Source of the DNA: a virus
Strand: one strand, 5' to 3'
IMG/VR virus record: IMGVR_UViG_3300042301_001235
Span: 1 to 36,254 of that record
DNA: 36,254 nt
Shown here: positions 5,501 to 23,213 of the stretch, piece after piece
Position numbering within the stretch: the stretch's first letter is position 1
How the letters are laid out: each line of letters begins with the position of its first letter
Made by a program: the position numbers and the translations under genes
The notes under the pieces: model-generated
What the model saw: only the letters and a program-made list of their open reading frames with translations
Told to the model about the DNA's origin: nothing
The model's database searches: none

Positions 5501-5686
5501 AACATTTGGACCTGCTAATAGTTGTGTAACACCACCATTTAAAGCGTATGAAGCACTTAATGCATTTAAAGCATTAGTTGCATATGAAGCTGTACCGAGT
5601 AATGATCCGGTGAATCCTGCTGTAGCTGTTACAGAGGTTAAGGTTGCATCAGAGCCAGACGTTATGACTTTTTTCCATGAGGGCAT
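2528..5686 (-). CDS. Large modular tail fibre with SHAEG (YadA-head-like) repeats
   Basis: This is a 1052-aa virion fibre candidate. The N-terminus (MPSWKKVITSGSDA) matches the start of the 276-aa protein upstream and is probably a shared attachment segment. Ala/Ser-rich strands with TASYA motifs follow. Residues of about 80-235 form a C1q/TNF-like beta-sandwich candidate (NAGIYNIQFSAQI...WLRKNG). From about residue 360 onward there are many SHAEG units of 13-14 residues, like the left-handed parallel roll of YadA/Hia heads. Three inserts of about 90 residues interrupt this stem. The C-terminus repeats SGSLxVSGSL and ends in a small beta domain. AAAGGA precedes the ATG. Fibre identity is confident; receptor and exact location are unknown. 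Confidence 0.8.
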   Translation of the reverse strand: MPSWKKVITSGSDATLTSVTATAGFTGSLLGTASYATNALNALSASYALNGGVTQLLAGPNVTLSPTNGLGQVTVSATLSGSTSFNTATGSYGSFYDTTTQTNPVANIARSMSFNSTDITNGVSISGSTNPFNTYVKTTNAGIYNIQFSAQIDKTDSGADEIVIWLRKNGIDLTDTATTLTLSGNNDKQVAAWNWFVTSAAGDYYQIIWISADIDLRLLAEPISGTHPGIPSVIATVNRVDQFLSNTGSFSGSFTGNLIGTASYATQALSASFATTASYSNNSTSASSAASAAYATTANDATSISSSITNNTDNRVLTATGTGVINGEANLTFDSQLLTLTNGILTFAGSTFGRIQQSPGGAANGLFSHAQGLAVGAYGEYSHAEGSSTSAFGFGSHAEGSGSATSTSKLYGAKFNTITSGVFQLAGDVTAVFAPGNRLYYNSAAYPDNTSFVVNTSVFGGVNTTITLNNTGINDSNFSVGSLDYAYTSWAGDLQSVSNGGHAEGYNTTAVADWSHAEGLQTQTFARYSHAEGSNTQANGKNSHAEGSNTKTFGDYSHAEGSTTQTNGPYSHAEGSETTTGNLKGYYATMTASGVFTISSTYGDLSGLGLFDAGYIIGVDDSRYDAIYTYINLIATSCSFNGTNTLVHVTDTVFLTSTASIGSITNFASNTGDQYWGGFAAHAQGNSTIAQGLFSHAEGGGRAYGNASHAEGSGIAYGNASHAEGGGQAYGNASHAEGGGIAYGNASHAEGSGIAGWIGYSMSESISAGVIKLQPVYGDRINEFVGGGFVLIQDDQGQIAGVPSTYRYEISSSAFTSSLTQIQLYDTSVSTANEIKITIGVYESPNPPVSDIPAGNASHAEGGGQAYGVASHAAGLGTQTLGWYQSVVGQGNIPLSSTSSFIVGNGSYDDINSIWTRSNLLVAEGNTVQISGSLQVSGSLTVSGSLRGQVSALSISSNTASIDMSTNNFFTLALVNGANTHINPTNINPGQTVNILVTQGAAGTGTVTFPSLVKQPSGSLYTGTAAANAIDIVTMIAFDSTNVYVSSVRNMI
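3435..3605 (-). repeat. 39-bp coding tandem repeats (AYGNASHAEG units)
   Basis: Four complete 39-bp units begin at 3435, 3474, 3513 and 3552, and a partial fifth begins at 3591. They are nearly identical at the DNA level and encode AYGNASHAEGGGQ-type 13-residue turns of the fibre stem. DNA identity is much higher than among the other SHAEG units, which suggests recent slippage or gene conversion. Confidence 0.85.
3960..4127 (-). repeat. 42-bp coding tandem repeats (SHAEGS units)
   Basis: Four 42-bp units start at 3960, 4002, 4044 and 4086. Each opens with the plus-strand string ctaccctcggcgtg and codes for SHAEGSNTQ-like 14-residue units. The ends of the units are conserved while the middles differ. 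They belong to the same fibre as the 39-bp repeats but use a different period. Confidence 0.75.
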
Positions 5687-6831: not shown

Positions 6832-7161
6832 TCAATCCAAACCTACAAAAAATGATCCAGATGTAAAATATATACCGCCATTTGGTGCAGAGCCTGTTAA
6901 GTTAACGCTTTGTGTTGCTATAACTATTACGCCACTTTGTGATACAGTTAATACGGGTTGATTATTAAAATTTTTAATTAAAAATATATTGTTTACGTCA
7001 CTTTTAATTTCCAGTGACCCTGTAATTACGGCACTACCAGAAAATGGAAATGTTCCGCCGCCACCGCCATTTAAAGCAAATGATGCAGTAATGGCATAAC
7101 TAGAAGAAATATTAAATAAAGATCCGGTTTGTAATTGTCCGGGCCTAAACTGCCTTGCCAT
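6832..7161 (-). CDS. Short fibre-like virion protein (109 aa)
   Basis: The product (MARQFRPGQLQTGSLFNISSSYA...) combines a TASFALNGGGGG turn with SGSAVITGSLEI and NQPVLTVSQSG strands. It resembles one module of the larger fibres. I choose the second ATG, at 7161, because it overlaps the stop of the gp15-like gene as TAATG and has GGGAG about 9 nt upstream. An ATG three codons earlier, at 7170, would leave no spacing. It is probably translationally coupled to the gp15-like gene. It may be a small fibre, or an adaptor joining fibres to the tail. Confidence 0.6.
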   Translation of the reverse strand: MARQFRPGQLQTGSLFNISSSYAITASFALNGGGGGTFPFSGSAVITGSLEIKSDVNNIFLIKNFNNQPVLTVSQSGVIVIATQSVNLTGSAPNGGIYFTSGSFFVGLD

Positions 7162-8384
7162 TATGCCCATCTCCCTTTAACTACGATAACATCATTTGCA
7201 TTAAGTGTATATCCTAATTCTGCAGTATCAAATACAATTGTTTGGGTTGCAATATCACTTGGTGTCCAAGTATATACTACTTTATCAACGTATTGTCCAT
7301 TGATAAATATATCAAATTCATTTTTAGATGCAACCGTAGTAGTTACTGGATTTACTGCGGCAAATGCTGCAATTGTTACTGTAGTAGTATTTGAATATGT
7401 TGCAATTCGTTCCGTTAAATTAGTTAAATAATTCATCGTGGTTGCATTGATATTTGTTATAGTTCCGCCTGACGAAACTGACACAATTCCGCCACTAGAA
7501 ATAACAGACTGCATTTGAAGCAGTTTAATTGGTACTTGCGTAGTTTCAAATATATTATTATCAACATCAACCGTCATTTCAAATACTAATTTTTTAACAG
7601 AATACATTTTTTTAATTGTAGATATTCTAACTTCTTGTTCAGACAGCAACGTGCCATGCACTGTTAATGGAATTGTCGCACGAACTAATCGGTCTTCTCC
7701 TACCGTATTAACAGTTTCAAATGATATTGAACCAATTGCCGTAGGAAATTTATTTCCTTCATTTCCCCAAGAAAATCGTCCATATGGTAATATTTGATCA
7801 ACTAACTCATTGAGTTGCGCAGTAAAATCACACCATATCATCATATCATATTCGACTGTAACATATTTTGGTATATCAACAATATAATATTCTTCTGATT
7901 GTTTTGGTTCATATTTTGGTATAGGAAATAATACATCTTCATATCTATTTCTAGAATTATATTTTGGACGAGATACAATGTAATTTTCAGAATTTGGTCG
8001 ATTAACATCTAATGATCGTTGTTCATCTTTTTCTGCTACACTGTTTCGTTTCAACATAATTATTGGAGATTGTAGCATTCCTTTTTCATCTCTAAGGTAT
8101 CCCAATCTACGTACATTGTCCCATTTTTCTCCATTTGCATAAATAACTGGCACTGAAAGTAATTGTTTATTTGCAGTTATTTGTGGCTGAATTTCATTTT
8201 CAATATACCATTTAATGGCATAATCAATATCATATATGGTTCGTTGTTTGGTTTTAACAACATCATCATCTCTTCTTGTTTGTAATGCTCTATTTAAAAC
8301 AAGATCAGGCGTCAATCCTTCTGTACTTTTAGGATTAGGCTTATTTGTTTTTCGATCTATGTCGTGTCTATTTAATCTAGGCAT
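7161..8384 (-). CDS. gp15: gp15-like tail sheath stabiliser/completion protein
   Basis: In T4, gp15 caps the tail and joins it to the neck. This 407-aa protein keeps the recognisable core: a VPVIYANGEKWDNVRR segment (T4 has VPITYASKEHF), then SPIIMLKRNS, then VTVEYDMMIWCDFTAQLNEL followed by VDQILPYGRF (T4 has TRYEDDMFQIVEQILPYF). A Ser/Thr-rich C-terminal extension from about residue 290 makes it longer than T4 gp15 (about 270 aa). It lies directly after the gp13- and gp14-like genes, as in T4, and starts 2 nt after the stop of the gp14-like gene with AAAGGA inside that gene's last codons. This is the best evidence here for a contractile tail. Confidence 0.7.
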   Translation of the reverse strand: MPRLNRHDIDRKTNKPNPKSTEGLTPDLVLNRALQTRRDDDVVKTKQRTIYDIDYAIKWYIENEIQPQITANKQLLSVPVIYANGEKWDNVRRLGYLRDEKGMLQSPIIMLKRNSVAEKDEQRSLDVNRPNSENYIVSRPKYNSRNRYEDVLFPIPKYEPKQSEEYYIVDIPKYVTVEYDMMIWCDFTAQLNELVDQILPYGRFSWGNEGNKFPTAIGSISFETVNTVGEDRLVRATIPLTVHGTLLSEQEVRISTIKKMYSVKKLVFEMTVDVDNNIFETTQVPIKLLQMQSVISSGGIVSVSSGGTITNINATTMNYLTNLTERIATYSNTTTVTIAAFAAVNPVTTTVASKNEFDIFINGQYVDKVVYTWTPSDIATQTIVFDTAELGYTLNANDVIVVKGRWA

Positions 8385-8386
8385 TA

Positions 8387-8905
8387 CTATCCTTTATATG
8401 GAAATGATTTATTAGTTCCACCTCTACGTAAATCAACAATATTTTGTGGCGTTTGACGTGTTGCATGTGCGTTACAAATAACAGATACACTATAACCATG
8501 ACTATCGCCATTTGGCCATGTTTCTGGATTCTTTCCTGCAAAATACTGATTTGCATCTACATTATCTAATTCGTAGTATTCATTATCCCAAAATACAATA
8601 TCTCCAACTTCAGGATAAAAATCAGCTTTTTCAAGTAAATCTCGAGAAACACCAAATGTTAATGTACGAGTATATGTATGACCATAATCATCCATTGCAG
8701 CAGATTTTTCATCTTTAGTAATCATACATGGAAGCAATAAAGAATCATAATATGATTTAGAATCAGATTCGCCATAAATATTAGATTCCGTAGTATCTAA
8801 TATCAATTTAAAAAATTCAATTTCAGTATCAACAATGGCATTAATCAATTCAGCATTGATTGATGCCAAAAATTTTGCATCTCGCATTGAACCAAATAGT
8901 GCCAT
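8387..8905 (-). CDS. gp14: gp14-like neck protein
   Basis: This 172-aa protein follows the gp13-like gene. Its features fit the gp14 head-completion family. An N-terminal helix carries NAELINAIVDTEIEFFKLIL, a segment with YTRTLTFGVSRDLLEKADFY comes next, and then VGDIVFWDNEYYEL-x-VD, where the family has a P-x-x-GD-x-(I/V) strand. It is shorter than T4 gp14 (256 aa). AAGGAG stands 7 nt before the ATG, one of the clearest ribosome sites in the window. The assignment rests on motif shape plus the T4-like gene order 13-14-15; a generic head-tail connector is the alternative. Confidence 0.6.
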   Translation of the reverse strand: MALFGSMRDAKFLASINAELINAIVDTEIEFFKLILDTTESNIYGESDSKSYYDSLLLPCMITKDEKSAAMDDYGHTYTRTLTFGVSRDLLEKADFYPEVGDIVFWDNEYYELDNVDANQYFAGKNPETWPNGDSHGYSVSVICNAHATRQTPQNIVDLRRGGTNKSFPYKG

Positions 8906-8914
8906 TGTATCTCC

Positions 8915-10141
8915 TTATCCAACATATATTTTTAATGGAACTTTAGCATATATTTCCATCATTTGTGTTGCTTCTGCATTTTGTCTCGTAATCATAGATT
9001 CTCGAGTCATTTTTTCTAAAAATTCACGAAGCTGTGTTATCAATGCTTCTTTTTCTGTTTGTCCTTGCGATGTTAGATCTGCACCATTTAGTGTTACTTC
9101 GCCATTTGGTATAGGAACAGATGAATATTTATTACGAATATATCCTAACATTTCTTTTGCAAGTGCCAATGCGTATCTAAATATCCACGCACGCCCCATA
9201 TCATTCACTCTACTGTATGTTTGATATGTATATGGTATATTTGATGCGTCCGTAATAACACCTCGCATAAGTGCTGTATTGCCAAATAACGCTGCCTCAT
9301 TTGTTTTTGATTCATCTAAAATAAATTCAATCCATACTTTATTGTAAAAAATTGAAGATGCCGATGAACCCGTGCCCGCAGTTGGTACTGGCCAAAATTT
9401 AATATCATCGCCGTGTATTTCAAATGTATAATGTGACTTACGTACCATATCATTAAATTCAATTGCCTGCAATCGAAGTAAGTCAGCATGAATTGGCATC
9501 ATCATAAATGATATGGACGGCGAAAATCCTCCAAAATTAAATGAATCCATTAATTGTTGTGAACCTAATCCTGTTCCAACAAATGGGTCAAAATATCTTA
9601 CAATAGCCGGCGGCGGATTATGTAAAACTCGTTTTACTTCTACCGAACTAGTTGTTAATACAATACCTAATGATTTAGATATTGCAGTACGTAAACTATA
9701 TGTTTGTTGTCCCGGTACTACATCTACTTCGGCTTTAAGCCATTTAATATTTCCTCCCGAATCAGCTTCGGTGCCATATGTTTTTGAAAGTTTTGTAATA
9801 TATCCAAATGAATTACCAATTAACGCATCAGTAAAACTATTATTTGTTAAAAAGTCTGAACCGGTTTGTATTCCTAATGTACTAAATAAATTGTTAACAA
9901 TGTTTACTTGATTTACTTGATTGGAATATTCAACGACTGCAGCTTCAAATGCAGTATAAAAATTTACTGCTTGCATTTCTACATCCATGATTGGATATCC
10001 TAATGTCTGTGCAGCCATTTTTGCAAACTTATCAGCATGCGATCGAAATACAGCATCAGCATCAAAAAATCCAAATGGAGTTGATCCAGTTGTAAACGAA
10101 GAACTGCCGGGCCAAATTGGTTTCTGAACACTGTAATCCAT
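8915..10141 (-). CDS. gp13: gp13-like neck protein
   Basis: The 408-aa product opens with IWPGSSSFTTGSTPFGFFD and continues with a TLGYPIMDVEMQAVNFYTAF helix, then a central beta domain (VDVVPGQQTYSLRT...). A conserved-looking LLRLQAIEFNDMVRKSHYTF segment follows, with FEIHGDDIKFWPVP after it. A C-terminal helical part has YIRNKYSSVPIPNGEVTLNG and EKEALITQLREFLEKM. This arrangement is typical of the neck proteins following the capsid gene in T4-related environmental phages. AAAAAGGAAAACG precedes the ATG. It would form the neck ring with the gp14-like protein. Confidence 0.65.
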   Translation of the reverse strand: MDYSVQKPIWPGSSSFTTGSTPFGFFDADAVFRSHADKFAKMAAQTLGYPIMDVEMQAVNFYTAFEAAVVEYSNQVNQVNIVNNLFSTLGIQTGSDFLTNNSFTDALIGNSFGYITKLSKTYGTEADSGGNIKWLKAEVDVVPGQQTYSLRTAISKSLGIVLTTSSVEVKRVLHNPPPAIVRYFDPFVGTGLGSQQLMDSFNFGGFSPSISFMMMPIHADLLRLQAIEFNDMVRKSHYTFEIHGDDIKFWPVPTAGTGSSASSIFYNKVWIEFILDESKTNEAALFGNTALMRGVITDASNIPYTYQTYSRVNDMGRAWIFRYALALAKEMLGYIRNKYSSVPIPNGEVTLNGADLTSQGQTEKEALITQLREFLEKMTRESMITRQNAEATQMMEIYAKVPLKIYVG

Positions 10142-10158
10142 CGTTTTCCTTTTTAATT

Positions 10159-11221: not shown

Positions 11222-12871
11222 TTAAAGCGTGTTAAGACCGTGAACGTATACTTTTCCGTAGAATTCTGGACGAACTACTTTCTTCGCGTAACGTGTCATA
11301 ACACCTTTACGTGGAGTGAAGTTCACCGGATCGTATACAAGCGGAGTCATAATTAATGGAATATATGGACTAAATACAGCACCCGTTTCAAGGAACTGAG
11401 TACCACGGAATCCCATAAGGATTACATTCTCTTTCATGTATGGGTTTTTGTATACGGTGTAACGATTATTTACTGAACCAATTTTTTGAACACCAGCAGC
11501 AAATTCCATTTTGTTACCATCTGTATCAGCAGCAAATCCTGGGATAGACTCGAGGATAGTTGCAACTGCAGGAGATGTTACTAAGAAGTTAGCACCACCA
11601 CGTAATGTTTTTTGGTGAATTTTATTAGATACTTTTTGAAGTTTAGTACCTAAAGTTTGGAACCATCCACCTTGGGTGTTATAGAATCCATCTCCTAAAC
11701 CTGGAGTAGCTGTACCTGCTGCAAGAGTGGTAAATGATGTACCATCAAATATTGTATTGTTTCGAGCTGACCAATATTCAGTTGTTGGAGCTGCTGCAAT
11801 TAACATATCAAGGATTTCAAGATCGATTTCCATTGATACATATTCAGACAACATTGAAGTCAATTCAGCTTCAGCATCAATTGAATGGTATGCATTTAAG
11901 TCTTGAGCAAATTCAGGTGTCCAAACTGCTTTCAACTTACGTGTTTTAGCAACGATTGGTTCTGATTGCATTTCAAGGTTAATTTCTGGAATGTCGATAT
12001 CAACATTATATCCATTTGCATACGTAGTTTTATCTTCAAAATCACCTCTTGTAATGTCGGTAGGCTGTTTGCTATAATTCAATCGAATTGTTCCTGCAGT
12101 GATAGCAGCTTGAACGCTAGTTGCGATAGATGAAGAAACTACAAATGATGCGGTAAAGTTTGAAGTAATTGTTGAAAATGCTTGTACTGGAGCTAATTCA
12201 GTACCTGCTGCTACTAATGTAAATGAACGAACTGCATATAAATCTGCATCAGTTGGAACATTAACAGTAACCATTTTGTATTGAGTTGAACCTGAATAAG
12301 CAGAATCACCATTAACTTGTACGGTAGTTGGAGTAGATCCAGTTGCAATTTCAGTTGCAGTCAAAATTGATGAAGAAACTGAATTAATTGAATATCCAAA
12401 ACGACCAGCCCCATAAAGACCGCCTGATGGATCATTTGCAGTAGTGGTAACACCGAACATTGAGTCATCAGCGTTAGGAGAACCAAACGGATCACCTGTT
12501 CTGTTTAAATTGTCGTTATCAAATCCTGGTTGAGCTGTACCATATTTAAAGTCTAGATAGAAAATAAGACCTGATGGTAAGTTCATTGGTTGAACTGAAA
12601 CGAATTCTTTTGCAGCAAATTCAGCAAAGATACGACGTACCAATGGAAGTGCTACACCTGCCCACTCTTCTGAACCAGCTGCTACACCAGTTGAAGAAGC
12701 TTCTTTTACTAATTGACGTGCTTGGTTTTCAAGCAATTGAGCCATTCCGGCTTTTTCTGTTTCGCCCTTAAGGCCTTCTAATAAACCGGTTCTTTCCCAC
12801 TTTGAAGCCAATGCTTTTGCTTGGTTTCGTTGTACGAAATCATTGGTTTGTAATAAATTTGAGATACTCAT
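11222..12871 (-). CDS. gp23: Major capsid protein, gp23-like
   Basis: The 549-aa product aligns in layout with T4 gp23. A charged N-terminal propeptide ends at about LVKE57-A58, matching the gp21 cleavage region FLTE-A of T4. A helix VALPLVRRIFAEFAA and the gp23 signature VSVQPMN (residues 91-97) plus LPSG follow. The middle holds a Ser/Thr-rich insertion (about residues 165-270), then SEPIVAKTRKLKAVWTPEFAQDL and the C-terminal LTPLVYDPVNFTPRKGVMTR-type segment. A purine-rich AAAAAGGAAAAAAAATG leads the start. It is 30 nt after the scaffold gene and ahead of a strong terminator. About 440 copies line the T4 head, so high expression is expected. Confidence 0.95.
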   Translation of the reverse strand: MSISNLLQTNDFVQRNQAKALASKWERTGLLEGLKGETEKAGMAQLLENQARQLVKEASSTGVAAGSEEWAGVALPLVRRIFAEFAAKEFVSVQPMNLPSGLIFYLDFKYGTAQPGFDNDNLNRTGDPFGSPNADDSMFGVTTTANDPSGGLYGAGRFGYSINSVSSSILTATEIATGSTPTTVQVNGDSAYSGSTQYKMVTVNVPTDADLYAVRSFTLVAAGTELAPVQAFSTITSNFTASFVVSSSIATSVQAAITAGTIRLNYSKQPTDITRGDFEDKTTYANGYNVDIDIPEINLEMQSEPIVAKTRKLKAVWTPEFAQDLNAYHSIDAEAELTSMLSEYVSMEIDLEILDMLIAAAPTTEYWSARNNTIFDGTSFTTLAAGTATPGLGDGFYNTQGGWFQTLGTKLQKVSNKIHQKTLRGGANFLVTSPAVATILESIPGFAADTDGNKMEFAAGVQKIGSVNNRYTVYKNPYMKENVILMGFRGTQFLETGAVFSPYIPLIMTPLVYDPVNFTPRKGVMTRYAKKVVRPEFYGKVYVHGLNTL

Positions 12872-12901
12872 TTTTTTTCCTTTTTTGTTTGTTTTTTGTT
12901 A

Positions 12902-13954
12902 TTACAATAATCCTGCTAATTTTTTCCATCTGTTAGCTAATTCGAAGCCTTCAGATAAAACATTTGTTGTTTCTACACTTGGAGCCGTAGTTCTCGTTGG
13001 TTTAGACGCGATAGATTCTTTAACTACTCGCTTCTTTGTTGGACGATTAAAACTTTCCGCTAATGTAGAAAATACTAATTTAACTTCTCTTGTATTTCCA
13101 GCTCTATCAAAATTTTCAATTACTTTCATTTTTTGAGCTTCATTCAATTCAAAGTTACGGAACAACTTGTTAGTGTAAAGAAGTTTAGCGTTAAGCAAAT
13201 TAACTTCATTGATAATACTTTTTAATTGTTTAACTGTTCGGTATGCTTCTTCCAATTCAGTTTTAGTATCATCTAATTCCATTGCCATTGCATCAACATC
13301 TTCTTCTGTCATGGTCATTGAATCTGATTCTTTATCTTCTGGAAATTCATTTCCATCTTCTTCACGAAGAATTGCTTCAATAATTTCTTCAATGCTTTCA
13401 TCTTCATCTTCATCACCATACATACCTTCCGGCATCATTTCTTCTTCTTCTCCTTCGTACATTCCTTCCATAGACATAGACATATCATCAACATCTTCTT
13501 CTGGCATTGTATCTAAATCTCCTTCTAATTCACGAATGATAGATTCTAATTCTAGATCATCTTCTGCCATATCCATTCCTTCATTGTACTCAGCAGTCAT
13601 TTCTTCTTCTGATGCTGGCATTTCTTCTGCAGGCGCTACCGCACCTTCTTCTTCACCGGCCATTCCAACTTGGAAGTTATAATCTTTACCACCAACTGAT
13701 GCTGCTAAAGAATCATCTGTCCAACTGAAATCGTCACCCATCTCCGCTCCTGCTTCTGCACCAGCGTCTACTACTGGTTCTTCTGCGGGCATTTCTTCTT
13801 CGCCTTCAACTTCGTTTTGTAGCTTTGTTTGCAACATAGCTTCGAGTCTAGGAGCGAATGCTTCTTGTAAAGCAATTTTTGCATTTGCAAGAGCAGTTTC
13901 CTTAACTGTCTTTGCATCAGCAATTGCTTGTTTTAGCAAGTCTGATTTTGCCAT
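12902..13954 (-). CDS. gp22: Prohead core scaffold, gp22-like
   Basis: A 350-aa, strongly acidic protein. The N-terminal helix (MAKSDLLKQAIADAKTVKET) is followed by a long Glu/Asp/Met-rich disordered region (about residues 50-215). A coiled coil (about 222-265, LDDTKTELEEAYRTVKQLKS) and a helical C-terminus with LNEAQKMKVIENFDRAGN follow. It ends in a Lys/Arg-rich tail with FELANRWKKLAGLL. gp22 forms the inner core on which gp23 assembles and is then degraded by gp21. Position directly before gp23 and the acidic low-complexity body support this. TTAAGGAGAAAAAAAATG is the strongest ribosome site in the window. Confidence 0.85.
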   Translation of the reverse strand: MAKSDLLKQAIADAKTVKETALANAKIALQEAFAPRLEAMLQTKLQNEVEGEEEMPAEEPVVDAGAEAGAEMGDDFSWTDDSLAASVGGKDYNFQVGMAGEEEGAVAPAEEMPASEEEMTAEYNEGMDMAEDDLELESIIRELEGDLDTMPEEDVDDMSMSMEGMYEGEEEEMMPEGMYGDEDEDESIEEIIEAILREEDGNEFPEDKESDSMTMTEEDVDAMAMELDDTKTELEEAYRTVKQLKSIINEVNLLNAKLLYTNKLFRNFELNEAQKMKVIENFDRAGNTREVKLVFSTLAESFNRPTKKRVVKESIASKPTRTTAPSVETTNVLSEGFELANRWKKLAGLL

Positions 13955-14082
13955 TTTTTTTCTCCTTAAATTTGTTTTTTGGAAATAAGATTATTTGAAT
14001 CTTAATAGAATAATTAAATTATAGACACTATATAAGAAATAGCGTATTTACAAATAAATATACCATTGAATAAAAAAACAGT
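13955..14082 (-). other. Leader between the bS21 terminator and the scaffold gene
   Basis: After the terminator comes one ATATTTAT copy and then nearly 100 nt of AT-rich leader. It holds a small hairpin at 13987-14003 (AAGATT, loop CAAAT, AATCTT) and ends with AAGGAG. It is the longest leader before a head gene and may set the high expression of scaffold and capsid. Confidence 0.5.
14054..14061 (-). promoter_or_regulatory. ATATTTAT motif heading the scaffold-capsid unit
   Basis: It reads TATATTTATTTGTAAATAC on the coding strand, 21 nt after the end of the T-run of the bS21 terminator and 99 nt before the scaffold start. Its position after a terminator favours a promoter role. Confidence 0.5.
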
Positions 14083-14110
14083 AAAAAAGCCCTAACTTTT
14101 TTGTTAGGGC
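14083..14110 (-). terminator. Intrinsic terminator after the bS21-like gene
   Basis: GCCCTAAC and GTTAGGGC form a perfect 8-bp stem with an A6 loop and a T6 tract on the minus strand. It ends 20 nt after the stop at 14131, insulating the scaffold-capsid unit from upstream transcription. Confidence 0.93.
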
Positions 14111-14130
14111 CTTAAAAAATCTTAAAAATC

Positions 14131-14367
14131 TTAAAGTGAATGTAGATCTTTAATCCTTTGCATAAATTGTGCAGCTTGTTTTTGTTTTCTTCGTTTGACA
14201 CTTGGTTTTACAAATTCTTTGCGATCTTTTGTTTTTTCTAAAACTTCGGTAGCTTTTACTTTACGTTTCCAAGTGCGCATTGCAAATCCTAAATCTTGAT
14301 TTACTACATTTACAGCCGTGGGGTTGCCTGGCACAATTGTTTGATGTTGTTTTTGTTTTTTATTCAT
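14131..14367 (-). CDS. rpsU: bS21-like ribosomal protein
   Basis: This 78-aa basic protein matches the bS21 pattern. It has an F-A-M-R-x-W-K-R-K-V helix where cellular S21 has A-L-R-R-F-K-R, then an RKEFVKPSVKRRKQKQAA segment (cellular form: RREFYEKPTxxRKRxxxxA) and a helical basic tail QFMQRIKDLHSL. The first 27 residues (MNKKQKQHQTIVPG...) are an unusual extension. bS21 sits at the mRNA exit/anti-Shine-Dalgarno region of the 30S subunit, and phage copies are known in aquatic phages. It could replace the host protein to favour phage mRNAs. It lies at the end of the terminase-portal-protease run, just before a terminator. Confidence 0.75.
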   Translation of the reverse strand: MNKKQKQHQTIVPGNPTAVNVVNQDLGFAMRTWKRKVKATEVLEKTKDRKEFVKPSVKRRKQKQAAQFMQRIKDLHSL

Positions 14368-14894: not shown

Positions 14895-15269
14895 TTATTC
14901 AACTTCAAAATATTTGCTTAAACCTGAAGCAATATCTTCATATGCTGCACTCAATCGTTGTTGTAATTGATTCATTTCTTTTGCTGTTGATTCAAATACT
15001 TTATATGAATCATTCAATGTTTTCATATGACGCTTAATTGTTACGTTATCAAACCAATCTCCAGATTCAGATGCAATTTGTTCTGCTTTATTTACGATAT
15101 CCTTAACTCGTTCCGTTAATTCTTGCAAATCGCCACGACCATATACTGAATCAGACATTTCAGAAAAACGTTTTACTTGCGCAACGAATTCAGCTTTTTC
15201 TTCTTTTGATAACGGTTGTGGCTGATCTTCAGTGATCATTTCCAAAATATATTTTAAATTCGTTTTCAT
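14895..15269 (-). CDS. Unknown helical protein in the head-assembly cluster (124 aa)
   Basis: A mostly helical, acidic 124-aa protein. It starts MKTNLKYILEMITEDQPQ, a leader with I-L-E and I-T-E sites, and continues with LTERVKDIVNKAEQIASESGDWFDN and a coiled-coil-like KEMNQLQQRLSAAYEDI. The start overlaps the protease stop as TAATG, so translation is probably coupled to gp21. This coupling and the cleavable-looking leader favour a small prohead core component. No known family is recognised. Confidence 0.65.
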   Translation of the reverse strand: MKTNLKYILEMITEDQPQPLSKEEKAEFVAQVKRFSEMSDSVYGRGDLQELTERVKDIVNKAEQIASESGDWFDNVTIKRHMKTLNDSYKVFESTAKEMNQLQQRLSAAYEDIASGLSKYFEVE

Positions 15270-15901
15270 TATATTATCCTACATTTACCATCTTCACACA
15301 AAATTGATGTAATGATGTTGTTTACTTTATTATATTTAGTTGTATGTGCCATTTTATTAACAGATTCGTTCATGTGCGTAGGACGCATAAAAGCCCCATG
15401 AGTTGATGGATTAGATACGAAATCCCAACATATCAATTCAAAATCTTCTTGAACTTCTACTACACCTTCATTTCGCAATTCTTTAACTGAACCTAATCCG
15501 CGCGATGAAATGCCTAATGTAATTCCTGCTCTAAAAAGTTCTTTAAGAATTTTACCAGATGGAGTATCTAGTATCTGTACTGCTCCTTGTAAATCATCGC
15601 CACTCCACCATATTTTTAAAACGTTGTGAGAAACGTTATTTAAATTTACAACCGAAGATTCTGGATGATCTAGTTCACCCAATGCTCTATGTTGGTCAAT
15701 ATATTCTTGTTGATATCGTCGACATTCTCTTTCTAAAATAGGCTTTGGATAAACTCGACCATTTTGATTTTTGGCTCCTGCTCGTTGCAAAACTCCTTGT
15801 ACAACAAAACCACCAGGTATTCCATATGCAGCACCGCTTGATTCAGTTAATGAACCAACAGGCTTAAATGGCATATATTCTACTATTAGTTGTTTTGACA
15901 T
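15269..15901 (-). CDS. gp21: Prohead core protease, gp21-like
   Basis: A 210-aa serine protease of the T4 gp21/U9 type. The catalytic His lies in ALGELDHPESS (H79). The Ser is in GITLGISSRGLGSV (S132), and D160-FVSNPS provides the third conserved block. The N-terminal part has the family's substrate-interface motif NQNGRVYPKPIL. gp21 cuts scaffold, capsid and internal proteins after (L/I)-x-E. The C-terminal 35 residues could be autocleaved. AGGAGA precedes the ATG, and the gene starts 1 nt after the 226-aa gene. It explains how the proposed leader peptides in this window would be removed. Confidence 0.93.
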   Translation of the reverse strand: MSKQLIVEYMPFKPVGSLTESSGAAYGIPGGFVVQGVLQRAGAKNQNGRVYPKPILERECRRYQQEYIDQHRALGELDHPESSVVNLNNVSHNVLKIWWSGDDLQGAVQILDTPSGKILKELFRAGITLGISSRGLGSVKELRNEGVVEVQEDFELICWDFVSNPSTHGAFMRPTHMNESVNKMAHTTKYNKVNNIITSILCEDGKCRII

Positions 15902-15902
15902 G

Positions 15903-16583
15903 TTATTCTCCTAATGCTCTTACACGTTCTGATATTTTAATTAATCGTTCTGATATTTTATTTAATGATTTTTCTACTGAAGTACCATATCCATTTCTTG
16001 CAACACTAGATTCGGTTTTTAAACGAGATGCATAATTCACTGTTTGTTCAATTTCTTGCAATTGTCGAGCAACTTCTTTAATGGTTTGTTTTATTTTTTG
16101 TTCCGGCGTTGATTTTGAATTTCCCGTTGCATAAGCTCGATATGATTCAACTAAATGTTCATATTTTTTATCTATAATTTCCGAAACGCTTTTCATATGT
16201 TTACTTGGTTTATTTGGCATAGGTTTCGATGGATATTCATATGATTTATTAAACCAATCGTTTTCATCATCGCTAAATGGAAATTTATCATTGAATTCTT
16301 CTTCTTCTGATTCTGGATGTTGATATGTATCATCTTTCCATCGAAATGATGGTGGAGTATTTACAGATTCATACGTTTTTGTTTTATTTTTCCATTTACC
16401 TGGTTTAGCAAATGCAGCTGGAGTACTAAATCCTGCCACTGCACCCGTTACATTTTGTTCGTCTAATTCTTCTTCATTTTCGCAAACACACTGATCTTTT
16501 GGCCTATCACATGAATCACAATAATCACTCGATTCAATCTCATCAAAACGCTTTTTCATTTCATTTAATAACGATTTCATCAA
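15903..16583 (-). CDS. Unknown Cys-cluster protein in the head-assembly cluster (226 aa)
   Basis: The protein starts MMKSLLNEMKKRFDEIESSD, a possible targeting leader. A four-cysteine knuckle follows (residues 22-34, CDSCDRPKDQCVC), which could bind zinc. The middle is Glu/Asp- and Pro-rich and low in complexity, with VTGAVAGFSTPAAFAKPG at 45-62. The C-terminal 90 residues are helical and basic, with a KSLNKISERLIKISERVR repeat. The start overlaps the 282-aa stop by 4 nt (ATGA), implying coupled translation. No family is recognised. Location between portal and protease suggests a prohead core protein. Confidence 0.6.
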   Translation of the reverse strand: MMKSLLNEMKKRFDEIESSDYCDSCDRPKDQCVCENEEELDEQNVTGAVAGFSTPAAFAKPGKWKNKTKTYESVNTPPSFRWKDDTYQHPESEEEEFNDKFPFSDDENDWFNKSYEYPSKPMPNKPSKHMKSVSEIIDKKYEHLVESYRAYATGNSKSTPEQKIKQTIKEVARQLQEIEQTVNYASRLKTESSVARNGYGTSVEKSLNKISERLIKISERVRALGE

Positions 16584-17428
16584 TGTAATCCTTTTAATTC
16601 TTTAATTAGATCATAGTATCTTAATAACGAAAGTATATGAGATTCTTTAATAGCTTTCATATTTTCTACCGTACATAGCATTTCTGAAAGTTTTTTTACT
16701 TTTATTTTAGTAGCTTTGTCAGTAATTAATTTTGATTGTTCAAACAATTGTTTTTTAATTTGCGGAATTATAACTTGAATATATTCTTTAAGAGCTGTAG
16801 TATCATTAACATTAGTTATGTATTTATTCAATAATTGTTTTTGCGATTCATCTAAAATAGAATATTTGTCATTGAATTTATCTACAAGTAATTTGTATGT
16901 TAATAATCGTATTTCTTTTGGTTGCGATTCAAATGATTCCATTAATGGATCTTTAACTATAGATTTTTTTTCTACAATTAATCCATTATCTAGAATTACA
17001 TTTTTACATTCTAATAACTGTTTTGGGTTATCTGTTTCTTCATATTCAAACAACATATAAATAGAAGCTAATGCTTTATAGTTATTGATGTGAATTTTTG
17101 ATAAATCAGAAAATACAAATTTTTCAGAAATTTCTTTAACTAAATTATATTTTTGTCGTTTTAAAATACTTTGATTTAATTTAGTATATGCATTTTTAAT
17201 TGTGCGAATATAATCCAAACCTTGAGCTTCACTACGGAATTGTTCTTTTACTAATGCATTATATAATTGTAATTCTTTTGCTAATTCGGTATTTTTTCCA
17301 AAGTATTTTTTGATAATATCTATAGTAACTGACTTATTTGATGTTAGTGTTTCCGAAGTTAATTTTCGGACTAACATTTCAAAAAGAATGCCGGTATTCT
17401 TATATTTCGAATGTTTTAATTTCTTCAT
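16580..17428 (-). CDS. Unknown helical protein following the portal gene (282 aa)
   Basis: This is a Lys-rich, almost entirely helical protein. It starts MKKLKHSKYKNTGILFEMLV and includes KKYFGKNTELAKELQLYNAL, LEYEET-type acidic turns and YSILDESQKQLLNKYI. There are no cysteine clusters, signal peptide or membrane segments. It sits between the portal and the 226-aa gene, where T4 has small genes 67 and 68, but it is about three times longer than those and not visibly similar. A role in prohead initiation or core assembly is possible from position only. It has no clear Shine-Dalgarno. Confidence 0.6.
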   Translation of the reverse strand: MKKLKHSKYKNTGILFEMLVRKLTSETLTSNKSVTIDIIKKYFGKNTELAKELQLYNALVKEQFRSEAQGLDYIRTIKNAYTKLNQSILKRQKYNLVKEISEKFVFSDLSKIHINNYKALASIYMLFEYEETDNPKQLLECKNVILDNGLIVEKKSIVKDPLMESFESQPKEIRLLTYKLLVDKFNDKYSILDESQKQLLNKYITNVNDTTALKEYIQVIIPQIKKQLFEQSKLITDKATKIKVKKLSEMLCTVENMKAIKESHILSLLRYYDLIKELKGLH

Positions 17429-17467: not shown

Positions 17468-19306
17468 TTATAAAATGTTCTTTTCATCTAACATTGTTCC
17501 AGAATCTAAATCTTGTTTTTGATTTTCATTGGTTTTAAGTGATTCTGTAATGATCGATGTTTGTTTTGTTTTTATTTTTTTCAACATATTAATATTTTCG
17601 GCAGAAATAGCTCTAGCTGTCTTTGCTGCCTTAGGATCTGGTAAAAATGCTGACTTTTGATTTTCCGGATTAAATGCTTGATTTATACTTTTCATACCCG
17701 TAGGATCCCATCCAAATTCATTTTTATGTTGTCCAAATTTAATTCCTTCTTTCGGACGACCTCCCGCATCTTTATCTTCAACGTCACTGGTCGACATATG
17801 AACTGTTGCTAAATCGTGTGGAGTGCCAAATGATTGACCAGTTACCGCAGGATCATTACCTTCTTGTTCAATTTGATTTTGACGGAATCGCAATTTTAAA
17901 TCTTCAACAACGTTGCTTCGTTCTTGCAACCATTGATCTTCTGACATGTTAAATATGTATTCATAAATGTATTTATCAGAAATTAATTTTGAATCGCGCA
18001 TTGCAGTTGCTAATGTCATTTTTTCAGTCATTAATGCAACTTTTTGTTGATCATATATAATTGATGGTGCGGTTAATTCTAATTCAAAACTAATTAAATC
18101 TTCGCCCTCATAACCTTGTGCATATAAATGTATAATTGCAATCTTAGTTAATTCAGATGTTGTAATTTTTTGAATTCGTTCAATTGTTCTAGCAAAACGA
18201 ATATCCATTGATGCTAAAGTAGATTTTCCTTCAACTCCTTCGTCATATCCTAAAAATGGTTTAGGAATTTTTAAAGCAGCCATCATTTTATGTTTGATAT
18301 AATCAATATCATCCATTCCGGTAAATGTCATACCAGGTAATGTATCAATTGCTGTAGTTGAATTTCCACCGCGAACTGGTAAATAATAATCTTCTAACAT
18401 GTTGTTCAAATTAAATTTAAGATTATAATTACCTGTCGTTGGATCGATATGTGGAATTTTTTTCATTTTGTTGATAATAGTTTCCATAAATGAATCAACT
18501 TCATTTGGTGGAATGTTACCAATATCAATTTTAAAAATACGTTTTTCTGGAGCACGCATAATACGATGTATTAGCATTGCATCTTCCATCATCATAAGTT
18601 TTTGAAATTCTTTACGAGCGCCTTCTAACATTGATCTACCATATGGTAAAAAATTAGAATCCGATAACATACGGAAATGTGCTATTTCAAAAACATCATA
18701 TTGTCGTTGTTGATCTGCAATATGTTTAAATTTAATTTCATATTCGCCAGTAACTTCATTATATTCTTCCCAACGTTCAATTTCATAACTAGAAAATGGA
18801 CGTGCATTAATAATTCCATATTCATCGGCAATATCTAATTTTAAAAAGAAATCACCATATTTGGTCATATTGCGAATCCAAGTCCATAAATTAAATTCTA
18901 TATTTAATACATCATAAAATAAATTATAAAGTATTTTTTGTACTTGCGTGTTGTTACATTTAATTGTTAAAATATCACCAAATTGATCTGCAAGTGTAGA
19001 TTCATCAGAATATATATCTAATGCCGAACTGATAATAGGATCTTTATCCATCATTTCATAATCAGCATAAAGTTGCATACGATTTTGATGCATATAGTAG
19101 TTAGAATCATAACCACCCATACCACCTACACGATGTTTATTTGCACCATGCAATCGTGTATATCTATCTGCAATTTTACTTTGATTTAAATTACCAACGG
19201 ACTGAAGTCGGTTTGTATCAACAACGCGAAGTTTATCTTTTCCATATGCACGAACTATTACATTCGTTGCAAATAAATTACGTAATCGTTTAGCTAAAGA
19301 TGCCAT
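17468..19306 (-). CDS. gp20: Portal protein, gp20-like
   Basis: A 612-aa protein with the gp20 layout. It has an N-terminal basic helix (MASLAKRLRNLF), YYMHQNRMQLYADYEMMDKD and PIISSALDIYSDEST, then TKYGDFFLKLDI and the helical wing MMMEDAMLIHRIMRAPEKRI. MTFTGMDDIDYIKHKMMAAL and KIPKPFLGYDEGVEGKSTLA are typical of T4-family portals. The C-terminal 110 residues are hydrophilic. The dodecameric portal forms the DNA entry vertex and starts prohead assembly. It follows terminase after a 53-nt gap with no sheath or tube gene between them, unlike T4. It shows no clear Shine-Dalgarno. Confidence 0.93.
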   Translation of the reverse strand: MASLAKRLRNLFATNVIVRAYGKDKLRVVDTNRLQSVGNLNQSKIADRYTRLHGANKHRVGGMGGYDSNYYMHQNRMQLYADYEMMDKDPIISSALDIYSDESTLADQFGDILTIKCNNTQVQKILYNLFYDVLNIEFNLWTWIRNMTKYGDFFLKLDIADEYGIINARPFSSYEIERWEEYNEVTGEYEIKFKHIADQQRQYDVFEIAHFRMLSDSNFLPYGRSMLEGARKEFQKLMMMEDAMLIHRIMRAPEKRIFKIDIGNIPPNEVDSFMETIINKMKKIPHIDPTTGNYNLKFNLNNMLEDYYLPVRGGNSTTAIDTLPGMTFTGMDDIDYIKHKMMAALKIPKPFLGYDEGVEGKSTLASMDIRFARTIERIQKITTSELTKIAIIHLYAQGYEGEDLISFELELTAPSIIYDQQKVALMTEKMTLATAMRDSKLISDKYIYEYIFNMSEDQWLQERSNVVEDLKLRFRQNQIEQEGNDPAVTGQSFGTPHDLATVHMSTSDVEDKDAGGRPKEGIKFGQHKNEFGWDPTGMKSINQAFNPENQKSAFLPDPKAAKTARAISAENINMLKKIKTKQTSIITESLKTNENQKQDLDSGTMLDEKNIL

Positions 19307-19359: not shown

Positions 19360-20940
19360 TTAACGGATTAACCAAGTTAAATCTTCATCATTGAAACCGT
19401 TATTCCATTTCCAACTGTCAGATCCGTTATTCATATTCTTACCAGTATAAATTACAGAATCAGTTTTTGTAAATTGTGAAAGTGCACGTTTATGTAATTC
19501 AATTCCTTGTTGTCGCAGTTTAAGCGATGTATCTCGTAACCATAATCCAATACAAAAAGACATAACAAGGTCATCATTATATCCGTTTTGTGATTGTGCT
19601 TTGCCATTTAACCATACAAAAACAAAAAGTTCTTGTATTAATCTTTTTGAACGAATTACTGGAGTTCGTTCTCTCATATACATTTCAAGTGCTGATATCA
19701 TTAATGGACGTGTACGAGATGTTGTTGATACTCCAGGAACCATTTGGGTTTTATCCTTCATATCATAACCTTTTTTAAGTTGCACATCTATATCAACATA
19801 TCCGTCATCTTTATATGTATAAAATAAATTTTCATATCCGCGGTCTAACGCTGGTTGAATTGCTGCCCAACCTATGTTTGCATTTTCAATTGCTAGCAAT
19901 GCATTGTTCCATTCTGTTGCAACAGACACAAGCATATTACCAAAATCTTTAGGTGGAAGTTTACCTTTATACTCAGCAACTTGTGATACAGATTCAACAT
20001 CAATAACATGAAATGTTGACCAGTCAGCACCATCACCACGAGCAACGTCAGCTACTACTATATAATTTTTTTCGTAGTTAGGATATTCCCAAATCCAATA
20101 TCCATTATCAAATCCTCGTCGTTCGATAGGTTCTATGCACTTTATTTCATAATCCATTAATATAGCGCCATCTATTACAGTATGACCAGATGAAATAAAG
20201 TCACAATCACATTCTTGAGCTGCACCTCGTTCTCCTAACAATTTAGTTTGTTCATCGCGCCATGTTTGATCGCGGTCTGGGTGAACGGTCCAATGCAATT
20301 TAATTGTATGGAATCCATTAATTTCTTGCTCAGCTTCTGACCATACTGAATGAAACCAGTTACCAATACCGTTAGGTGTAGATAAAACAATAGCACCACC
20401 ACCTGTTGATAATGTTGCTTGCGATGCTACCCATATTTCTTCAATATTGCGAATAAAGGCAGCCTCATCTATAATTAACAATGATAATGCTTCAGAACGT
20501 GCTCCTGTGGTTGCAGATGAAACTGCTTTAATTTGTGAGCCATTTTTAAATTTCAATGAAAGTTTATTATCAGCTTCAATTGTTCCTTTCAACCAACTAG
20601 GTAAATTGTCATGCATTACTCGTACTTTTGTTACTAAGTTTTTTGCTACTTCTTGTGTCGTTGCAATAACAAGTACGTTAAAATCTTCATTGAATAACAT
20701 GCTCCAAAGAGCAAAGCCGGCTGATAATGTTGATATACCTAACTGTCGTGACTTTAAGATTACATTGTAACGATTATCTCGCAATTCAGTTAATGAATCT
20801 TCCTGAAATGGATATAAATTAAATTTGATCTTACCACGTTTAGGATGTTGAATATAACAATATTGCTTCATGAAAAAAACAGGATCTTTAGCACACATCG
20901 TGTACTGTTGTTGAATGATCTGTTTTATATTTTGCGACAT
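19360..20940 (-). CDS. gp17: Terminase large subunit, gp17-like
   Basis: A 526-aa DNA-packaging motor. The ATPase domain has an adenine-binding YPFQ (residues 43-46), a Walker A variant ILKSRQLGIST (61-71), Walker B LLIIDEAAF (D158, E159) and coupling motif LSTPNG. The RNase-H-like nuclease domain has VVADVARGDGADW with D298, an acidic IENANIGW (E352), and YNDDLVMSF near 457. Length fits the family (T4 gp17, 610 aa). It starts 1 nt after the 126-aa membrane-protein gene with no clear Shine-Dalgarno. No small terminase (gp16) was found in the window. Confidence 0.95.
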   Translation of the reverse strand: MSQNIKQIIQQQYTMCAKDPVFFMKQYCYIQHPKRGKIKFNLYPFQEDSLTELRDNRYNVILKSRQLGISTLSAGFALWSMLFNEDFNVLVIATTQEVAKNLVTKVRVMHDNLPSWLKGTIEADNKLSLKFKNGSQIKAVSSATTGARSEALSLLIIDEAAFIRNIEEIWVASQATLSTGGGAIVLSTPNGIGNWFHSVWSEAEQEINGFHTIKLHWTVHPDRDQTWRDEQTKLLGERGAAQECDCDFISSGHTVIDGAILMDYEIKCIEPIERRGFDNGYWIWEYPNYEKNYIVVADVARGDGADWSTFHVIDVESVSQVAEYKGKLPPKDFGNMLVSVATEWNNALLAIENANIGWAAIQPALDRGYENLFYTYKDDGYVDIDVQLKKGYDMKDKTQMVPGVSTTSRTRPLMISALEMYMRERTPVIRSKRLIQELFVFVWLNGKAQSQNGYNDDLVMSFCIGLWLRDTSLKLRQQGIELHKRALSQFTKTDSVIYTGKNMNNGSDSWKWNNGFNDEDLTWLIR

Positions 20941-22304: not shown

Positions 22305-23213
22305 TTATTGTTTGTTTTCTTCAGAATTATTTGCAGCTGATTGAATTTTACTTAATTTTTTTACTGCTAATTTATTTAATAATTTGTAAAAATTTTTAGT
22401 ATCAGCTAATTCTGCATCTTTAAATAACTTGTTTAATACTTGCGCAATCGTTTCAATTCTACCAATATTTCCTCGTTCTCTTTCCAACGCTTTGGTTATT
22501 TTTTTAACTGCATCTTTTTCTTGTTCTTCTGGATCTTCTTCAGCTGCTGGTTCTTCTGCTGGTGGTGCAGTTGGAGCTGGTGCGGGTGGAGCAGCTGCAT
22601 CAGGTGCCGGAGGTGTTGCTGCGGCATCAGGTGCCGGAGGTGTTGCTGCGGCATCAGGTGCTGGAGGAGCTGCGGCATCAGGTGCTGGAGGAGCTGCGGC
22701 ATCCGGTGCCGGTGCGTCTGCTGGAGCGTCTGGTGCTGGGGCTTCTTCTTCTGGAGCATCTGTTGGTGCGCCTTGTTCTCGTAAAACTTTTGCTATTTTT
22801 CTACGAATATATTCTCTAACCAATTGTTCTTTTTTTGCATTAGACAAACGATTAATACGTTCTTTAAGTTCAGTGGTAGTAACACCATGATCAATTTCAT
22901 CTCGTTTTTCTAGATACTCATCTGAATCTTCTTCTTGACGTTTACGTAAAACATTCATTGCATGTTTTGGATCATATTCACCATCTTCAAGTTTTTTATA
23001 TAAACGGTCTTTGTCAGTATATTTCGGATACATTTTACCGTCGTCTTGCATGGCTTTATCTGTTTTACGAGCAACCTTTTCTTGTTTCTTACCCGTAGAA
23101 TATGGGTTTAATTTTTCATCTTTATCATCATATGTATAATCTTTAAGATCTTTACGATATGTTGGTTTTTTATTTTCTGGTTTTTTATACTTGCTTTTGT
23201 GTTTTTCAGCCAT
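22305..23213 (-). CDS. Unknown protein with Pro-Ala-Asp repeat linker (302 aa)
   Basis: The N-terminal 120 residues are very hydrophilic (KHKSKYKKPENKKPTYRKDL...). A helical LVREYIRRKIAKVLREQ follows (about 130-147). Residues 148-225 are a low-complexity Pro/Ala/Asp linker of roughly five PPAPDAAA units. The C-terminal 75 residues are helical (VLNKLFKDAELADTKNFYKL). The linker is coded by repeated ggtgccgg-type DNA that is much richer in G+C than the rest of the window. No family is recognised. The layout (charged head, flexible linker, helical tail) suggests a scaffold or tether, but this is inference. Confidence 0.6.
   Translation of the reverse strand: MAEKHKSKYKKPENKKPTYRKDLKDYTYDDKDEKLNPYSTGKKQEKVARKTDKAMQDDGKMYPKYTDKDRLYKKLEDGEYDPKHAMNVLRKRQEEDSDEYLEKRDEIDHGVTTTELKERINRLSNAKKEQLVREYIRRKIAKVLREQGAPTDAPEEEAPAPDAPADAPAPDAAAPPAPDAAAPPAPDAAATPPAPDAAATPPAPDAAAPPAPAPTAPPAEEPAAEEDPEEQEKDAVKKITKALERERGNIGRIETIAQVLNKLFKDAELADTKNFYKLLNKLAVKKLSKIQSAANNSEENKQ
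22590..22700 (-). repeat. GC-rich coding repeats (PPAPDAAA units)
   Basis: Short in-frame units of about 24-27 bp, repeated about five times, encode the Pro-Ala-Asp linker of the 302-aa protein. The plus strand carries repeated gcatcaggtgccgg/gcatcaggtgctgg strings. The region is a local GC peak and prone to slippage. Confidence 0.75.

Follow-up and report, generated by a model that had tools for sequence, protein, structure and literature searches.

bS21 is the ribosomal protein that phages carry most often, and the reason has been an open question since 2019. Structures and genetics place the protein at the pocket of the anti-Shine-Dalgarno sequence (ASD) and at the 5' mRNA exit channel (PMC9976891). 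In Flavobacterium johnsoniae, Tyr54 of bS21 stacks on A1534 and helps to hide the ASD, and loss of bS21, of its C-terminus or of Tyr54 raises translation of a reporter with a strong Shine-Dalgarno sequence (SD); Phe or Tyr at position 54 is a signature of the Bacteroidia (PMC9976891). Published delta-C ribosomes are largely devoid of bS21. The sole obvious SD of this organism is held by rpsU, the bS21 gene, and is read by ribosomes that lack bS21, an arrangement described as autoregulation through an extended SD (McNutt et al. 2023, PMC9976891). Among phages, the bS21 of Bacteroidetes huge phages has been proposed as a substitute for host bS21 on late genes (Chen et al. 2022, PMC9723584), and that of Pelagibacter phage HTVC008M is cited by both PMC9723584 and PMC9976891 as entering E. 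coli ribosomes (Mizuno et al. 2019, PMC6375957). Where phage S21 carries a basic N-terminal extension, this was predicted to bind RNA and to assist initiation on the mRNAs of the phage (Al-Shayeb et al. 2020, PMC7162821). Earlier publications thus cover both phage bS21 within head-gene clusters and the basic N-terminal extension of phage S21. We found no publication linking phage bS21 with SD use, with the proviso that subscription papers or preprints may hold one, and as far as can be told the correlation with SDs, its gene specificity, its dependence on an N-terminal arm and the inverted logic of rpsU described below are new.

The locus described here lies in a 36,254-base IMG/VR virus record (IMGVR_UViG_3300042301_001235; hereafter the window, meaning the whole stretch of DNA analysed). 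Like the genes of Chen et al., its bS21 gene adjoins terminase, portal, protease and major capsid protein (MCP) genes and encodes an aromatic residue at position 54. Chen-type genes lie on the strand opposite to the structural genes, whereas the window gene shares their (minus) strand. Chen-like loci in IMG/VR, with bS21 on the opposite strand, encode an armless, host-like protein (MIIIEVGKRENIDRALKRYKYK...) and lack SDs at both MCP and protease, while the window bS21 carries an N-terminal arm (hereafter armed) in an SD-using phage. With the system of McNutt et al. the locus shares the position of the protein and the question of access to the ASD; that host has a very strong SD on rpsU only, whereas in these phages rpsU is SD-less and moderate SDs lie on genes for what are probably high-copy proteins. 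The basic extension recalls that of Al-Shayeb et al. (2020, PMC7162821), whose report, in the part concerned, ties S1 rather than S21 to missing SDs and does not describe a KKQKQH...PGN arm or the constraint on it. HTVC008M belongs to another phage lineage with another host, and its bS21 is likened to ours by description, not by sequence (PMC6375957, as described by the citing papers). Lastly, the RpsU of Microcystis phage Mel-JY01 (PP395634) occupies the same slot between protease and scaffold, but has no basic arm, Lys at position 54 and a moderate SD of its own, in a phage with SDs at portal too.

Mel-JY01 (L133), recorded from Microcystis elabens, has a T4-like head cluster and an MCP 55% identical to those of Bacteroidota phages, and its true host deserves a check.

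A bS21 gene in the head-gene cluster

The head genes of the window are T4-like and lie almost entirely on the minus strand: large terminase (TerL), portal, prohead protease, bS21, a scaffold-position gene, MCP, PhoH and gp13-, gp14- and gp15-like genes. By MCP, the nearest named phage is Flavobacterium phage immuto (56%). The features of the bS21 gene are as follows.

14131-14367, minus strand: bS21 (rpsU) gene, 78 aa, by Pfam, NCBIfam and PDB sequence matches; without an SD of its own
14134-14316, minus strand: bS21 core, residues 18-78 (PF01165 match at residues 19-67; AlphaFold model)
14317-14367, minus strand: N-terminal arm, residues 1-17 (MNKKQKQHQTIVPGNPT); absent from 80 cellular bS21, most conserved segment
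14164-14166, minus strand: codon for Phe68, aligned with Tyr54 of F. johnsoniae bS21 (ungapped alignment with 7jil)
14086-14113, minus strand: intrinsic-terminator-like hairpin, 11-pair stem followed by a T run, directly 3' of bS21

The preliminary description of this DNA had recognized a bS21 core within a head-gene cluster, and both points hold. The open reading frame scores above the cut-offs of Pfam PF01165 (37.1 bits against 27, aligned residues 19-67) and NCBIfam TIGR00030 (34.8 bits against 28.95, aligned from residue 18), and the closest solved chain is F. johnsoniae bS21 (7jil). The gene sits between hyp158/prohead protease and scaffold/MCP on one shared strand. An AlphaFold model has three helices (residues 26-39, 42-48 and 55-77; mean pLDDT 80, pTM 0.41), and its top Foldseek matches were weak, to the bS21 chain of the human mitochondrial ribosome (E about 0.3). 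The 5' neighbour stops 10 nt ahead of bS21. The hairpin directly 3' of the gene makes bS21 look like the final gene of its own unit, set apart from the scaffold-MCP unit.

The N-terminal arm

The preliminary description had counted about 27 novel residues ahead of the core. An extension is real, but the ordinary N-terminal strand had been counted in: the alignment with 7jil has no gaps and an offset of 14, and the family profiles start at residues 18-19, so that the window protein extends about 14-17 residues beyond cellular bS21. Nor is it novel as a kind, given the published extensions on phage S21 (PMC7162821). Two comparisons proposed at that stage, with related phages and with host bS21, were carried out. 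All 80 cellular Flavobacterium-type bS21 have nine residues ahead of the shared core and lack the basic extension of the window protein, while across related phages the arm (consensus M[NS]KKQKQHxxIVPGN) is the most conserved part of the protein.

Our first 80 relatives were collected with bS21 itself as query, and this sample is biased towards the arm because MNKKQKQH was a search seed; a second sample was therefore anchored on the neighbouring prohead protease. Wherever a protease-anchored locus continues for more than about 900 nt downstream, it has an armed bS21, which rejects the arm as an artefact of seeding. In this sample mean identity was 0.95 for residues 1-8 and 0.68 for the core, and pN/pS was 0.12 in residues 2-8 compared with 0.52 in the core. 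The arm is kept, with synonymous changes, in 47 distinct genes of a sample not seeded with it, and this conservation indicates that the extension is translated. An internal start at Met30, which would leave no extension, is rejected by the conserved codons upstream of it and their low pN/pS, and constraint on an RNA element rather than on protein by synonymous changes at the Asn and His codons.

The arm is disordered in the AlphaFold prediction and carries a net charge of +3 in the first 15 residues of most members. In divergent relatives its sequence varies, yet the arm remains basic and in most cases finishes with a PG motif ahead of a V-x-V strand.

Four of 148 cellular genomes of the Bacteroidota phylum (G042, G047, G089 and G097; L522-L525) encode a bS21 with Arg at position 54 and a longer N-terminus ending in RPGVGIKV, which resembles the phage PG..VKV segment on a non-identical extension. 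One of them, G042, has 62% GC and an SD peak ratio of only 2.1.

SD sequences gene by gene

Gene starts were called by simple rules blind to SDs, and the percentages below count distinct upstream sequences, which do not equal independent evolutionary events.

12878-12882, minus strand: AAGGA, SD of the MCP gene (11222-12871); SD in 98% of 59 distinct orthologue upstream sequences
13962-13967, minus strand: AAGGAG, SD of the scaffold gene (12902-13954); 93% of 54
15908-15912, minus strand: AGGAG, SD of the prohead protease gene (15269-15901); 80% of 55
15277-15280, minus strand: AGGA, SD of hypothetical head gene hyp124 (14895-15269); 89% of 45
16589-16593, minus strand: AAGGA, SD of hypothetical head gene hyp226 (15903-16583); 88% of 56
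10147-10151, minus strand: AAGGA, SD of the gp13-like gene (8915-10141); 93% of 27
8911-8916, minus strand: AAGGAG, SD of the gp14-like gene (8387-8905); 100% of 25
8390-8394, minus strand: AAGGA, SD of the gp15-like gene (7161-8384); 88% of 24
17468-19306, minus strand: portal gene (PF07230), SD-less contrast class in the same cluster; SD in 0 of 37
19360-20940, minus strand: TerL gene (PF03237), SD-less contrast class in the same cluster; SD in 0 of 29

The upstream scan bears out the earlier remark that head and neck genes have AGGA-type sites while many other window genes do not. Such sites precede scaffold, MCP, PhoH, the gp13-, gp14- and gp15-like genes, protease and the two head hypotheticals, at 5-7 nt from the start (8 nt if gene 15903-16583 uses its second start codon), and are missing from bS21, portal, TerL and most genes at 16.6-35 kb. 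The PhoH site is not conserved among relatives (15% of 27 orthologue upstream sequences), and bS21 has an SD of its own in 2% of 66. Because portal and TerL are excluded, the SD class does not consist of head genes as such. In distant armed genomes it adds tail sheath, tail tube, SSB and GroEL, with polymerase, DnaB, primase and exonuclease remaining outside. Judging from gene identity, the class would be best described as high-copy proteins.

SD use among relatives according to bS21 state

MCP-anchored loci were gathered with immuto and Mel-JY01 as queries, and presence or absence of bS21 was confirmed by whole-contig profile searches. An SD precedes MCP in 96% of 96 distinct upstream sequences from loci with bS21, compared with 13% of 54 from loci without it. 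Split by arm, the counts are 90/91 for armed bS21, 0/6 for armless bS21 and 7/54 for no bS21, and the protease SD is likewise missing from all seven Chen-like armless loci. Portal and TerL lack SDs in nearly all armed phages. Genome-wide, armed phages show a sharp peak of SD tetramers 7 nt ahead of their starts, and bS21-less phages a flat profile; the ratio of the 5-9 nt spacing peak to background is 24.6 for the window clade, 39.4 for other armed phages, 80.6 for Mel-like phages, 0.29 for armless, 1.56 for bS21-less and 2.9 for the L289 subclade. Single armed genomes range from 6.4 to 69, and bS21-less long contigs of immuto-like and L289 type from 0.3 to 1.0. Immuto has the orthologues in matching gene order without SDs, and we therefore rejected operon position as the cause of the SDs.

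In the MCP tree, armed and bS21-less groups form a deep split. Within the armed part of the tree, the well-nested L267 and the weakly placed L264 have neither bS21 nor SDs, and L252, with an armless bS21, has no MCP SD and a weak genome-wide peak of 2.6. L265, a candidate for an armed locus without an SD, was set aside since AAGGA lies directly ahead of its called start, which is probably mis-called. Few independent changes underlie the comparison (one deep split, L267 and L264), and the armless outgroups are represented by only 6-7 distinct loci; within these bounds, it is the arm, and not bS21 in itself, that co-varies with SD use in the sequences compared.

One bS21-less MCP-related subclade (L289, L297-L300, L308, L310 and L312) has retained SDs of AAGGA type ahead of MCP, protease and tail sheath, though elsewhere in its 297-kb contig SDs are avoided. 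No bS21 was present in any contig of this subclade searched (up to 297 kb). A phage-encoded bS18, as a second component of the pocket or an explanation of this subclade, was sought and not found.

Start signal of rpsU and residue 54

The sequence upstream of the window bS21 gene is AACAAGAAATTTAATTAATCATAT, with an energy of -2.0. An extended SD on the own gene, as in Bacteroidia-type bS21, is absent here and occurs in one of 72 distinct window-clade members, the other 71 being SD-less. Among other bS21-bearing loci rpsU has an SD in 9%, these being the Mel-like ones. By contrast, all 80 cellular Flavobacterium rpsU genes have a strong extended SD (median -19.8 by our own duplex score), in hosts reported to lack SDs elsewhere. 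The logic of the host gene is thus reversed in these phages, where rpsU is SD-less and other genes bear SDs.

Position 54 is aromatic in all 69 window-clade members having a residue there (37 Phe, 32 Tyr); outside the clade, 23 of 43 bS21 from armed or related phages have Arg. Since the clade retains the aromatic residue, any action of the arm on the ASD would have to occur despite its hiding, or by regulating it.

Proposed mechanism

We postulate that the armed bS21 replaces host bS21 and makes the hidden ASD of Bacteroidota usable for high-copy phage proteins, a reading drawn from the sequence comparisons to which we give slightly less than an even chance. First, bS21 would be made from its own start, which, being SD-less, unmodified host ribosomes can translate; its synthesis should lie outside the host feedback loop. 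Second, the core would take the place of host bS21 on the 30S platform. Third, the basic arm (KKQKQH...PGN), with the N-terminus near the 5' mRNA exit channel, may stabilize or expose the SD-ASD helix, such that moderate SDs (about -6 kcal/mol) would work where host ribosomes need about -20. Lastly, the SD-bearing genes (capsid, scaffold, protease, neck, tail sheath and tube, SSB and GroEL) would gain translation, and portal, TerL, polymerase, helicase and most host mRNAs would not. The fuller version, in which unlocking of the Bacteroidia ASD favours SD-marked high-copy viral mRNAs over SD-less host and viral ones while the SD-less bS21 gene escapes host bS21 feedback, is tentative, a possibility that we would stop short of calling probable.

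Correctly spaced, gene-specific SDs co-occur with the conserved arm of a bS21; that causation runs from the arm to SD use is what we infer from this pattern. The preliminary description had suggested that a phage bS21 could shift translation towards one class of genes carrying good SDs. Conserved, gene-specific SDs that track the armed bS21 agree with this, with the amendments that the class appears to be one of high-copy proteins, that the co-varying factor is the arm and that the bS21 gene itself is SD-less. Several observations count against the proposal: the uniformly aromatic residue 54 of the window clade should favour hiding the ASD rather than freeing it, SDs precede MCP, protease and sheath in the L289 subclade with no bS21, and in the Mel-JY01-like clade SDs are widespread with no basic arm.

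The contrast between armed phages with SDs and armless or bS21-less phages without them offers a concrete, testable answer, for one large phage group, to why phages carry bS21, namely that bS21 variants can alter the start signals that the ribosome reads. If true, this would be a clear viral case of a specialized ribosome, in which a viral ribosomal protein switches on a mode of starting largely abandoned by the host phylum; it would also explain the arm and offer a means of controlling expression through SDs in Bacteroidota, which normally ignore them.

Host evidence and alternative explanations

The main rival is an SD-competent host. The hosts of armed phages, whether SD-competent lineages of the Bacteroidota phylum or others such as cyanobacteria, would on this account read SDs already, the SDs would mark highly expressed genes and bS21 would serve otherwise; we regard this as unlikely, though to be taken seriously. 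Mel-JY01, reported from Microcystis, combines SDs with a bS21 in the same slot, and the L289 subclade has SDs with no bS21. A cellular genome of the Bacteroidota phylum, G073, has an SD peak (ratio 11.7) and an Arg54 bS21, matching the residue found in 23/43 phage proteins outside the window clade. Because some genomes of the phylum, such as G073, use SDs, some of the armed phages may have a host whose ASD is free, and for those with Arg54 an SD-using host is quite possible.

The window clade itself points the other way, its Phe or Tyr at position 54 being like that of Bacteroidia. GroEL of a relative, G001, is up to 71% identical to that of Bacteroidota genomes, compared with about 61% for proteobacterial GroEL. 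Among solved chains it matches an ancestral Fibrobacteres-Chlorobi-Bacteroidetes chaperonin best (719 bits, against about 665 for E. coli and 524 for the chloroplast protein). In five Bacteroidota genomes sampled, among them the four best GroEL matches, SD peaks occur in 0-10% of genes, compared with 20-25% in phages G001 and G003. The SD-less genes of these two phages have, like those of immuto and unlike those of Mel-JY01, A at -11 to -13 and T at -1 in their start context, and the near-uniform lack of SDs at portal and TerL in armed phages also sits poorly with an SD-competent host. The evidence leans to an SD-less Bacteroidota host for the window clade. Three further searches were uninformative or empty: MCP had no match in 395 Bacteroidota genomes, the Bacteroidota -33/-7 promoter motif was enriched neither here nor in immuto, and a scan of genome contigs with the phage family confirmed no relatives.

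Simple replacement, in which phage bS21 completes ribosomes or evades host shut-off when host bS21 is short and the arm aids competition for the 30S subunit with no choice of mRNA, seems improbable to us. Competitive ribosome binding has been proposed as one role of the extensions (Al-Shayeb et al. 2020, PMC7162821), the retained aromatic residue 54 would fit, and the armless phage bS21 presumably works without SDs; the occurrence of SDs with the arm, and their lack where bS21 is armless or missing, would be left unexplained. It is very improbable that infection depletes host bS21, leaving bS21-free ribosomes to read the SD genes until phage bS21 restores SD-less translation. F. johnsoniae ribosomes lacking bS21 do prefer strong SDs, but the known effect needs SDs below -13 kcal/mol (PMC9976891), whereas phage SDs average about -6.5; nor would this account require a conserved arm, or sit easily with the SD-less phages that have armless bS21. 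That the arm has an unrelated function (binding of a phage protein, or packaging into virions, raised by Chen et al. 2022, PMC9723584, and in keeping with a gene among virion genes) and shares only ancestry with the SDs is likewise very improbable, despite the few independent evolutionary changes, as L264 and L267 change in both traits together and varied basic arms with PG motifs across divergent clades suit contact with nucleic acid.

Other features of the window

Two further genes encode repetitive proteins. The first (2528-5686), preceded by a strong SD (AAGGA, -9.8), encodes a protein of 1052 aa that is likely a tail fibre or adhesin; its many HAEG(S/G) repeats resemble head repeats of the YadA type. 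The second (22305-23213) encodes a 302-aa protein with a long mid-protein Ala-Pro-Asp repeat (APPAPDAA). In addition, TATTTATA is enriched on the coding strand of the window (218-35946, minus strand) and of G001, G003 and immuto, with 42 occurrences against 17 expected in G001, 43 against 11 in G003 and 28 against 13 in immuto. It often lies just ahead of SD-less gene starts, for example that of portal, and is possibly a late promoter giving short leaders.
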